64,000 nt of DNA from Dyella sp. ASV24. GTDB taxonomy: Bacteria > Pseudomonadota > Gammaproteobacteria > Xanthomonadales > Rhodanobacteraceae. The translations under genes and the position numbers were made by a program. Each line of letters starts with the position of its first letter. Position 1 is the stretch's first letter. Positions 5,524 to 31,122 of the stretch are shown here, in pieces. The stretch spans positions 62,001 through 126,000 of the forward strand of contig NZ_JAELTQ010000001.1 of NCBI RefSeq assembly GCF_016428905.1, given 5' to 3'. Below the pieces are notes generated by a model. The model was not told where the DNA came from. It did not search any database and was given only the letters and a program-made list of their open reading frames with translations.

Positions 5524-5616
5524 GGAGAGGTGTCCGAGTGGTTGAAGGAGCACGCCTGGAAAGTGTGTATACGGCTTATCCCCGTATCGCGGGTTCGAAT
5601 CCCGCCCTCTCCGCCA
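5524..5616 (+). tRNA. tRNA-Ser (anticodon GGA)
   Basis: The acceptor stem GGAGAGG (5524-5530) pairs with CCTCTCC (5606-5612). Discriminator G and an encoded CCA follow (5614-5616). The D-loop contains GTGGTTGAAGGAG, and the anticodon loop reads CTGGAAA with GGA, which decodes UCC/UCU. A long class II variable arm and GGTTCGAATC T-loop complete it. The sequence is close to the enterobacterial tRNA-Ser(GGA). Confidence 0.96.
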
Positions 5617-5668
5617 GTGAGTGAAACCGGGCGACGGTACTGAACCGACGCAACATGTACGTCTCTAT

Positions 5669-5778
<110 letters not shown>

Positions 5779-5818
5779 GCCTTTTCAGGGGTCCGATCGG
5801 CAACTGCTGCAGGCGTTA

Positions 5819-5847
5819 CTGACTTGCCGCGGTCGACTTGGCACAAT
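5819..5847 (+). promoter_or_regulatory. Possible dnaX promoter upstream of the structured repeat
   Basis: CTGACT (5819-5824) and CACAAT (5842-5847) are 17 nt apart, each matching four of six sigma70 consensus bases. If real, transcription would start near 5854 and the whole element at 5866-6136 would form the dnaX leader. This is weak evidence from position and two hexamers. Confidence 0.35.
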
Positions 5848-5865
5848 CCATGTTCGCCCCAAGGT

Positions 5866-6136
5866 TTAGAGCCTGCTTATGGCATTCCAGCAGCCCGCGT
5901 TGTTTCGCTTAGCCTGTCAGGTGGTAGGGTGCAGTGCTGGCCAGGGTGGTGCCCTGGCCAAGCTGCGCGCTGCCGCATGGCGGGCTAAGCGAAACAACCC
6001 TTCGGGCCGGATCTGTTTGCCCGCAGGCCGGCGTCATTACTCGGTCGTGTATCGACATACACTCCCTCGTTCTTCCTTGTCCTGCGCGCAAACAGATTCC
6101 GGCGCGGGCTACTGGAATGCCAAAAGCAGGCTCTAA
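5866..6136 (+). repeat. Large structured repeat element, copy 1 (unknown family)
   Basis: Terminal inverted repeats of 34 nt (5866-5899 and 6103-6136) match at 32 positions. Inside are three nested or branching structures. A 15-bp stem (5900-5914 with 5983-5997) encloses a 9-bp hairpin (5938-5946 with 5952-5960). A right arm pairs GCCGG-ATCTGTTTGC (6006-6020) with 6088-6103. A small hairpin GTGTAT-CGAC-ATACAC sits at 6047-6062. A second copy lies at 30912-31122 with the same layout and orientation. No ORF is convincing inside. The element ends 3 nt before the dnaX start codon. Confidence 0.85.
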
Positions 6137-6139
6137 CGC

Positions 6140-7822
6140 ATGTCTTATCAGGTACTCGCGCGCAAATGGCGCCCTCGCAAGTTCGCTGAACTCGTTGGGC
6201 AAGAGCACGTCGTGCGCGCGCTCACCAATGCGCTCGACACGGGCCGCATGCACCATGCCTACCTGTTCACCGGTACGCGCGGTGTAGGCAAGACCACGAT
6301 TGCCCGCATCTTCGCCAAGTCGCTTAACTGCGAGCGTGGCGAATCGGCCGATCCGTGCGGTGAATGCGCCGTCTGCACCGCGGTGGACGCAGGCCGTTTC
6401 GTCGACCTGCTTGAGATCGACGCGGCCAGCAACACGGGTGTGGACGACGTGCGCGAGGTGATCGAGAACGCGCAGTACGCGCCCGCCCGGGGGCGCTTCA
6501 AGGTGTACCTGGTCGACGAGGTGCACATGCTTTCCAAGCCGGCCTTCAACGCGCTGCTGAAAACGCTGGAAGAGCCGCCGCCGCACGTGAAGTTCCTGCT
6601 GGCCACCACCGATCCGCAGAAGCTGCCGGTGACGGTGCTGTCGCGCTGTCTGAAGTTCAACCTGAAGCGCCTGTTGCCGGAACAGATCTCCGGGCAGATG
6701 CGCCACATCCTGGGCGCGGAGAACATTCCGTATGAGGACGCGGCCATCGCTGAGCTGGCGCGTGGTGCGGATGGTTCGCTGCGTGACGGCCTGTCGCTGC
6801 TGGATCAGGCCATCGCCTATGGTGGTGGCTCGCTTCGCGTGGATGACGTGCGCGCCATGCTGGGCAGCGTCGCTCGCGGTCAGGTGCTGGGTCTCCTGCA
6901 GGCGCTGACGGAGGGCAGCGGCGAAGCACTGATGGCTGAGTGCACACGCATTGCATCCTTCTCACCTGATTTCGGCGGCGTGCTGGACGACCTGGCCAGC
7001 GTGCTCCATCGCATCCAGCTGACCCAGCTCGTACCGGGTTATCGGCCGGAGCAGGACGATAGCGACGGTGACGTCTTGGCCGGGCTCGCCGGGCAATTGG
7101 CGCCGGAAGACGTGCAGTTGTACTACCAGATCGCCACCACGGGCCGCCGCGATCTCGCACTCGCGCCGGATGCCCGCACAGGCTTTGAAATGGCCATGTT
7201 GCGCATGCTCGCGTTTCGCCCTGCCGAAGGCGGTGGTTCACACGTCGAGCGTGCAGTCACCAGCGCCGCGCCGCGCGCGCCGGCACCACCACCACGCGCC
7301 TCGGCCCCGGTGGCCAATGAGCGTATGCATATGGCCAGCGTGGCGGAACCTTCGCCGGTGCGCGCCGCTCCCGCTCCGGTGGCGCCACCCGCTGCGGCAC
7401 CTGCGCCGCGCATGCCGATTGCGAAGGACGCGCGGGGTCTGCCGCACTGGGACAGCCTGATCGAGCAAGCGAACCTGCGCGGCCCTCTGGGCCAGCTCGC
7501 CCAGAATGCGGCGCTGCGTGATCGCGAAGGTCACACCCTGGTCTTGGCCCTGCAGCCCATGCACATGCATCTGGCCGTCGAGCCCATGGTCAGTCAGATG
7601 GAAGAGCGCATCAGCCAGGCACTAGGTGAACGGGTAAAGCTTCGTTTTATCGAAGAACGCGGCGCGTCGGGCGAAACTCCGGCAGCGCGTGCGGCCAATG
7701 CACGCGAAGCCGCGCAGTCGGCTGCCGAACAGGCCATCGAGGAAGATCCCCTGGTGCAGTCGCTCAAGCGCGAATTCGGCGCGCGTGTGGTGCCCCAGTC
7801 GATCAAACCGTTTGAAAACTGA
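6140..7822 (+). CDS. dnaX: DNA polymerase III subunit gamma/tau
   Basis: The product is the clamp-loader ATPase. The 560-residue protein has Walker A GTRGVGKT at 45-52, a zinc site formed by Cys64, 73, 76 and 79, and Walker B/DEVH at 126-129. A proline/alanine-rich linker (about 375-430) leads to the tau-specific C-terminal domain that contacts polymerase and helicase. I see no A-rich slippery sequence of the E. coli type, so a short gamma form by frameshifting is not evident. The ATG at 6140 lies just after the structured repeat; the only ribosome-site candidate (AGG, 6128-6130) is inside its right terminal repeat. Confidence 0.95.
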   Translation: MSYQVLARKWRPRKFAELVGQEHVVRALTNALDTGRMHHAYLFTGTRGVGKTTIARIFAKSLNCERGESADPCGECAVCTAVDAGRFVDLLEIDAASNTGVDDVREVIENAQYAPARGRFKVYLVDEVHMLSKPAFNALLKTLEEPPPHVKFLLATTDPQKLPVTVLSRCLKFNLKRLLPEQISGQMRHILGAENIPYEDAAIAELARGADGSLRDGLSLLDQAIAYGGGSLRVDDVRAMLGSVARGQVLGLLQALTEGSGEALMAECTRIASFSPDFGGVLDDLASVLHRIQLTQLVPGYRPEQDDSDGDVLAGLAGQLAPEDVQLYYQIATTGRRDLALAPDARTGFEMAMLRMLAFRPAEGGGSHVERAVTSAAPRAPAPPPRASAPVANERMHMASVAEPSPVRAAPAPVAPPAAAPAPRMPIAKDARGLPHWDSLIEQANLRGPLGQLAQNAALRDREGHTLVLALQPMHMHLAVEPMVSQMEERISQALGERVKLRFIEERGASGETPAARAANAREAAQSAAEQAIEEDPLVQSLKREFGARVVPQSIKPFEN

Positions 7823-30911: not shown

Positions 30912-31122
30912 AGAGCCTGTTCACGGCCTCCGCATAGCCCGCGTTGTTTTAGAGTGGCTGCCTGGCTGCAGCCACTCTAAAACAACCCTCCGGGCCGGGT
31001 CTGATTGCCCCCAGTCCGGCGTCATCACTCAGTCGTGTACAGACGTACACTCCCTCACTCTTCCTTGTCCTGCGCGCAATCGGCTCCCGGCGAGGGCCAT
31101 GCGGAGACCGTGAACAGGCTCT
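30912..31122 (+). repeat. Large structured repeat element, copy 2
   Basis: Terminal inverted repeats of 32 nt (30912-30943 and 31091-31122) match at 29 positions. A perfect 18-bp stem lies at 30944-30961 with 30968-30985 (6-nt loop). A right arm pairs parts of 30994-31008 with 31076-31091. The hairpin GTGTAC-AGAC-GTACAC is at 31035-31050. Segments outside stems, such as CTTCCTTGTCCTGCGCGCAA, are the same as in copy 1. It lies 6 nt after the pilZ stop and upstream of the nuo promoter. Confidence 0.85.

Follow-up and report, generated by a model that had tools for sequence, protein, structure and literature searches.

The gene that we take, from its protein sequence, to be dnaX is separated from its promoter in Dyella sp. 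ASV24 by a long structured element, and the question raised by this locus is how ribosomes reach the dnaX start codon. The window analyzed here is a stretch of 64,000 nucleotides, in which the element before dnaX is a 265-nt MITE with a three-way junction, lying between the dnaX promoter and the ATG at 6140. We propose that this MITE was inserted between the Shine-Dalgarno candidate AAGG and the dnaX ATG and is tolerated as a terminate-reinitiate translational relay, a reading that, from comparison of the site and of the element family, we hold to be slightly on the probable side. The features on which the argument draws, numbered by position in the window, are as follows.

5677 to 5773: SRP RNA (Rfam match); the element sits between it and dnaX.
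5819 to 5847, plus strand: dnaX promoter, CTGACT (5819-5824), 17-nt spacer, CACAAT (5842-5847), with boxes common to 20/20 congeners.
5861 to 5864, plus strand: native Shine-Dalgarno candidate AAGG upstream of the insertion, from congener comparison.
5866 to 5868, no strand: left flanking TTA, the target-site copy, not identical to the right TAA (family target C-TNA-G).
5869 to 6133, plus strand: MITE of the GA end type (GAGCCTG...CAGGCTC), 265 nt, sense to dnaX.
5869 to 5899, plus strand: 5' arm of the outer stem, pairing with 6103-6133; 22 of the 30 pairs of helix 1 are changed on both sides.
5879 to 6136, plus strand: proposed relay ORF of 85 codons, from an ATG at element position 11 to the stop TAA; open in the window genome (G000) and in G010.
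5899 to 5998, plus strand: hairpin H2/H3 of the three-way junction, from the fold and family covariation.
6011 to 6097, plus strand: hairpin H5 with the conserved core, containing a small hairpin (6047-6062) with a CGAC loop.
6103 to 6133, plus strand: 3' arm of the outer stem, from the inverted-repeat search.
6127 to 6130, plus strand: CAGG in the 3' terminus of the element, a rival candidate ribosome site, with a like-placed CAGG in other genera without the element.
6134 to 6136, plus strand: TAA, the right flanking target copy and stop codon of the proposed relay ORF; the right flank is the stop in 10 of 18 relay copies.
6140 to 7822, plus strand: dnaX, clamp loader subunit, 560 aa; the first 167 aa are 99-100% identical in 20 congeners.
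30912 to 31122, plus strand: second, shorter copy of the family, 211 nt, from a sequence match within the window.

The inverted arms of the dnaX element, taken with their flanks, are 34 nt long (5866-5899 and 6103-6136) and 94% complementary, and two inner hairpins lie between them. Positions 5866 to 6145 fold as RNA to -191.4 kcal/mol, compared with a mean of -109.6 kcal/mol for shuffled sequences (z -15.6), and none of 200 shuffles folded as well. The preliminary description of this DNA, made from its letters alone, had a structured element abutting dnaX, which agrees with this fold and with an element that ends at 6133 (6136 with the flanking TAA). Identity with a known Rfam RNA family was rejected, as none fits: no family exceeded the gathering cut-off for the element, the SRP RNA and two tRNAs were the only Rfam families found in the window, and the best subthreshold match within 5800-6200 had an E value of 0.04.

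Copies of the element are short, dispersed, and numerous, with terminal inverted repeats and no transposase gene, as is characteristic of bacterial MITEs. The window genome has 32 family matches, 3 of which are the arms of the dnaX copy read backwards, and matches were found in 29 of 61 sampled genomes. The exact core pattern occurs in at least 105 stretches, from Dyella, Rhodanobacter, Rhodanobacteraceae, or a few MAGs, and a covariance model of the 3' module was found in 22 of 151 genomes of the order (12 genomes of the same bacterial family and 10, with weaker matches, of other families). Two IMG/VR viral contigs (L194 and L195) contain the core pattern. Copy length ranges from 160 to 313 nt (87 copies). 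The cleaned set used for the site counts was made from 263 kept hits, of which 179 were full and 176 were used, giving 133 sites, after 55 overlapping hits, 3 full copies without a sense core, and hits without both ends had been dropped; it supersedes earlier context counts on 135 sites that held some copies on both strands.

Two end types were distinguished, GAGCCTG with TNA flanks (GA, 100 sites) and GGGCCTG with TA flanks (GG, 33 sites). At GA sites the 3-nt flanks are identical in 31 of 100 cases, against 13.9 in shuffles (maximum of 23 in 1000), and empty sites are seen at dnaX, tolR, yqeY, and parB, which together show target duplication for the family, with differing flanks (TTA and TAA) at dnaX. 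The GG type shares TA at 26 of 33 sites, and its shuffles share TA at 25.2, so that it carries no information on target duplication. The GG sites have the same core as the GA type and lack its start-codon preference, as if two transposases moved one core. We assume, from the ends and the TNA target, that an IS5-like transposase probably moves the MITE in trans. No autonomous IS partner was recognized among end pairs 700-2600 nt apart in the collected loci or around nine solo ends of the window genome. Of these solo ends, the one at C38 belongs to a hairpin remnant some 50 nt long. A phage or plasmid origin was rejected, there being no blastn match in either collection.

The fold is strongly maintained across the family. 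In 69 full-length copies, 97.8% of cells are paired and 67 of 101 pairs change on both sides, double-sided changes numbering 932, compared with 223 after shuffling; in slid controls the paired share drops to 34-42%. G-U pairs outnumber A-C mismatches 262 to 18 in hairpin H2 (114 to 18 without the columns where G-U is commonest), whereas the counts are 21 and 26 in the outer stem, 9 and 9 in H5, and 4 and 8 in the core hairpin. Because G-U far exceeds A-C in H2 and not in the outer stem, the comparison suggests that H2 is kept as RNA of the sense strand; the outer arms look as if kept as DNA or through copying between arms. The sequence comparisons thus give good support to a family of structured MITEs, known in kind, whose relation to translation starts is unusual.

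Among known systems, ERIC, NEMIS/Correia, RUP, and CIR elements are likewise small and multi-copy with long paired RNA, and mostly have terminal inverted repeats and short target duplications, and ERIC effects on mRNA are described as depending on orientation (PMC2229807). The Dyella family differs from all four in its three-way junction of about 265 nt, its extreme covariation, its two end types with TNA and TA flanks, and its GA-type copies, which gather in sense immediately ahead of start codons and contain matched ORFs. The palindromic elements of Rickettsia are mobile too and carry an open frame; they are known for in-frame fusions inside genes with a conserved peptide (PMC10969869), whereas the Dyella ORF mostly ends at the next start. 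Assignment to that group was rejected: 9 of the 13 differences between the two dnaX-site copies change the peptide, and 18 of 26 copies near a start end their frame at the start codon.

The dnaX site was compared in 20 congeneric genomes, 18 of which lack the element. Both promoter boxes, read by eye, occur at the same place upstream of dnaX in all 20, in keeping with the weak promoter that the preliminary description had placed at 5819-5847; the site has 8 of 12 consensus bases and lies below the cut-off of the pattern scan. Since the congeners have this same promoter, which in the window lies ahead of the element, the view that the element makes up most of the dnaX leader is supported. In the 18 element-free congeners just 25-27 nt separate GGCACAATC from the dnaX ATG. 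AAGG stands 9 nt before the ATG in 10 of them, CAGG or TAGG stands nearer the ATG in 7, and 1 has neither, so not all of them rely on AAGG, which is missing in 8; congener G013 has no clear Shine-Dalgarno before dnaX. In G010, as in the window genome, the element follows AAGG, and in the window the gap from AAGG to the dnaX ATG is 275 nt.

Because the promoter, the 5' leader, and AAGG are kept and element-free congeners show the short gap, we conclude from the comparison that the insertion split the dnaX leader between AAGG and ATG; replacement of the original leader, which had been suggested earlier, is not supported. The same comparison removes the earlier claim that AGG at 6128-6130 offers the only Shine-Dalgarno-like bases, since AAGG at 5861-5864 corresponds to the AAGG of 10 congeners. 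The AGG does lie inside the outer stem, as described, with an unpaired probability of about 0 in the folded leader.

The copies at the dnaX sites of the window genome and G010 are 95.1% identical, with 13 differences and no indel. Six of the changes, at paired positions of H1 and H2, preserve standard pairs, and one more turns a mismatch into a pair in G010, but where pairs of H5 and the core are changed, they are broken. Fourfold sites of dnaX differ between the two genomes at 82 of 205 positions, and another orthologous element copy is 87.6% identical. The 5' junction of the insertion differs by one T, and G002 and G003, which are closer to the window genome in dnaX than G010 is, have no element there. 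Vertical descent with losses, transfer, or two insertions may each account for the dnaX copy, all being compatible with these sequences.

The chain at dnaX runs from AAGG (5861-5864) over 14 nt to ATG 5879, through 85 codons to TAA 6134-6136, and over 3 nt to ATG 6140. In the proposed relay across the inserted MITE of about 265 nt, ribosomes would load at AAGG, start at ATG 5879 in the 5' arm before the 3' arm is transcribed, and cross the element over 85 codons, which would prevent the fold from closing, and they would then terminate at the TAA, the right-hand target copy, and reinitiate 3 nt further on at the dnaX ATG. At operon sites, where the left target copy is often the stop codon of the upstream gene, the relay ORF would inherit stop-start coupling. 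That ribosomes translate the 85-codon ORF and go on to dnaX by reinitiation is inferred, and so, by the order in which the arms are transcribed, is a loading early enough to hold the outer stem apart. The preliminary description had dnaX translation depend on opening of the fold: this is plausible, and dnaX translation may hinge on how the element RNA is opened, but by a route other than exposure of a hidden AGG, since the 85-codon ORF passes across the fold, and the family statistics given below favor relay ORFs. Of the absence from close relatives with equal expression, which that description had set against such dependence, the absence is what we find in 18 of 20 congeners.

Stop and start codons within a few nucleotides of each other, the arrangement of termination-reinitiation, are found at dnaX (3 nt) and, with stops at -15 to +20, in 18 of the 26 near copies. 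According to two studies, reinitiation requires overlaps or very short distances and is nearly abolished by about 20 nt (PMC10666635), and ribosomes on an upstream ORF can, in addition, open structure that covers a downstream start (PMC12548453). As in the overlapping genes described there (PMC10666635, PMC12548453), stop and start lie within a few nucleotides, and Dyella copies also overlap by 4 or 1 nt; the upstream partner in that system is a gene, whereas in Dyella it is a mobile element. The spacing of 14 nt between AAGG and ATG 5879 is above the ideal and counts against the relay. In the folded leader of the window genome AAGG is partly paired (unpaired probability of 0.15-0.63), and in G010 the value for AAG is 0.83-0.90. 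The codon score of the 85-codon ORF is negative, yet the best among the frames compared. A coding function of this ORF was rejected, since its peptide is not conserved.

The relation to translation starts was examined over the 133 sites, with gene starts from a simple codon-score gene caller written for the analysis. GA-type copies have an ATG within 25 nt of their 3' end at 30 of 100 sites and of their 5' end at 4 (two-sided binomial, 6e-6), whereas the GG type has 1 of each among 33. With thresholds for frame, ATG, and relay window picked after inspection of the data, 18 of the 20 sense copies that have a start within 12 nt can be read in a sense frame from end to end, versus 34 of the 80 remaining GA copies (p 1e-4), such a frame contains an ATG at element positions 9-14 in 13 of 20 versus 11 of 80 (p 1e-5), and the through-ORF stops within -15 to +20 of the start in 15 of the 20 near copies, compared with 21 of 96 frames at other starts by a like rule.

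We defined a relay as an ATG or GTG at element positions 9-14 with a stop within -15 to +20 nt of the gene start; 18 of the 26 copies within 12 nt of a start qualify (14 of 20 in the discovery set and 4 of 6 held out). When 77 other copies were swapped into the 26 sites, a mean of 1.3 and a maximum of 6 relays resulted, and none of 2000 trials reached 18. Permutation of the same 26 elements among their own sites gave a mean of 12.2 and a maximum of 17, and since the observed 18 exceeds this maximum, the match of element frame to site is site specific. With the start-codon condition removed, 19 of 26 copies qualify, whereas swaps give 6.3 on average (maximum of 14). Of the 18 relay starts, 15 are preceded at 4-16 nt by a Shine-Dalgarno or lie within 20 nt of the stop of an upstream gene, the latter being so in 12. 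The right-hand flanking codon serves as relay stop in 10 of 18; where the TNA target is a stop codon, its two copies can close the upstream gene and the relay in turn. Eight of the 26 near copies are not relays of the defined form, and 4 of these instead continue in frame into the gene but have no start codon close to the left end; in all, the frame reads on into the downstream gene in 5 of the 26. Copies 13-25 nt from a start are relays in 6 of 15 cases.

A held-out test with criteria fixed beforehand covered 80 regions (about 70 had been planned; more of G023, and G036, were included) and 10 loci, yielding 93 hits, 29 of them full, and 20 new sites. Sense copies outnumbered antisense copies 8 to 1 among 18 GA sites (two-sided binomial, 0.04); the frame was open in 5 of 6 near copies versus 7 of 12 others (one-sided p 0.31), an ATG in the open frame was present in 4 of 6 versus 2 of 12 (p 0.057), and the relay stop lay near the start in 4 of 6. 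All directions were as in the discovery set, orientation alone being significant.

Empty sites place the element between a native Shine-Dalgarno candidate and the start also at tolR (G004 and G005), yqeY (G019), and parB (G036). Homologues were inspected for dnaX, tolR, yqeY, parB, and leuS only. An AGGAG- or GAGG-type motif was read by eye before tolR in 11 of 12 homologues (of 18), AAGGA or GAGGA before yqeY in 16 of 16 (of 19), and AGGAGTAAGC-ATG at parB in 7 of 7 (22 loci tried). The tolQ-tolR junction of Dyella sp. SG609 (L152) has a separate insertion at a different position, and mreC is preceded by copies at different positions in two genomes. The names dnaX, tolR, parB, yqeY, leuS, nuoF, tamA, hemE, ccmC, mreC, kdpE, and cheZ are those that we presume from recognition of the protein sequences. 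A split ribosome site at leuS was rejected, as the insertion lies after the native start and the called leuS start is not native. At L104 (hemE-like), L197, L294 (leuS-like), L435, and one frame of L036, the open frame through the element runs on into the gene, a possible N-terminal extension of the gene by the element.

These split sites also bear on another explanation, in which the closed outer stem would join AAGG 5861-5864 to ATG 6140, with one U before the stem and CGC after it, and the 30S subunit would bind across the base of the helix. The model is T4 genes 38 and 25, where structure likewise lies between the Shine-Dalgarno and the start and cuts spacings of 22 nt to 5 and 27 nt to 11 (PMC3014915); that structure is a small native hairpin, far smaller than the 265-nt mobile insert of Dyella. 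Beyond the placement of the element at dnaX, tolR, yqeY, and parB, this explanation is favored by the Shine-Dalgarno-like 4-6-mers that occur in the 8 nt ahead of the element in 8 of 14 sense copies whose start is within 8 nt, versus 1 of 20 whose start is 9-25 nt away (p 0.001), and by yqeY, whose copy has no ATG at positions 9-14, so that the plain relay fails there. Insertion into the gap would, however, leave an upstream Shine-Dalgarno whatever the mechanism, and one is also present at 14 of the 67 GA sites that are not close to a start. A closed stem gives no reason for open frames, matched ORF ends, or sense orientation, the two strands folding nearly equally (mean of -193 kcal/mol for plus and -188 for minus, plus being better in 111 of 169 of an uncleaned set with some copies on both strands). 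We consider a T4-like ribosome site assembled across the stem unlikely.

Closest to the preliminary description is initiation from the element's own CAGG at 6127-6130, 9 nt from the dnaX ATG, when the stem opens. The strongest support found for the AGG of that description comes from other genera without the element, whose dnaX leaders carry a like-placed CAGG at the same spacing, with CAGGCTCCAACGC (G073, G087, G100, and G125) or CAGGCTCTAACGC (G061) directly before the ATG. The CAGG or TAGG of seven element-free congeners and the nearly invariant CAGG(C) of the family ends point the same way. Against this, the CAGG offers three to four pairs only and is fully paired in the folded leader, and it is present at both ends, which predicts no orientation bias where 30 versus 4 was observed; open frames are unpredicted as well. 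Shine-Dalgarno-like 5-mers left unpaired number 0 per copy in sense and 1.08 in antisense (first 40 of 96 copies, uncleaned set). We think it quite unlikely that this CAGG serves dnaX. At dnaX itself, the relay, the site joined across the stem, and the terminal CAGG are not separated by sequence alone, the latter two being possible there.

A neutral MITE, with dnaX transcribed from a further start within the element or beyond it, or else initiated weakly, and with sense bias and open frames reflecting subfamilies with a target preference, gains from G013, where weak initiation can evidently suffice, and from an underpowered tree-controlled test (its pairs lean toward the relay, with an average of 2.5 same versus 0.2 opposite, among only 6 supported pairs, and 0.05 is not reached), but is improbable given that a scan of 5600-6300 found no promoter-like site (it misses the native promoter too), that near-start copies require at least 14 state changes on a tree of 92 copies and are therefore not one subfamily, and that the observed match was not attained in any permutation of the near-start elements among their sites.

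The relay reading can be extended from dnaX to the family. In this tentative extension, which falls somewhat short of an even chance, a transposon family would sustain host genes by being translated, its length, left-end start codon, and stop-like TNA duplication forming a relay cassette in one orientation only; placed at a stop-start junction or between a Shine-Dalgarno and its start, the cassette would carry ribosomes over 265 nt of hairpin and deliver them to the displaced gene. Such a cassette would let the family colonize the leaders of dnaX, tolR, and parB, whose expression would depend on ribosome flow through a mobile RNA, and clamp-loader synthesis would come under the control of ribosome traffic. 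Insertion between a Shine-Dalgarno and a start should silence a gene, so that persistence at several genes in one orientation would point to a general route of tolerance for selfish DNA in compact operons, and the copies would be natural experiments on reinitiation and split ribosome sites. Titles and abstract openings of open-licence literature contained no description of the element family or of a MITE as a relay.

Contigs of the window genome's own assembly (L015, L017, L018, L021, and L026) end near element copies, with adapter-like and poly-C/G ends, and 10 of the 32 match rows of this genome are no more than about 310 nt from where a contig ends, probably because sequencing or assembly halts at the hairpin. 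At two dnaX loci of other genomes (L399 and L400, from G100 and G073, respectively), upstream of the SRP RNA, the 5' part of a tRNA-Ser gene was not seen and other sequence adjoins the conserved 3' end, a pattern that resembles integration of an island into the tRNA-Ser gene.
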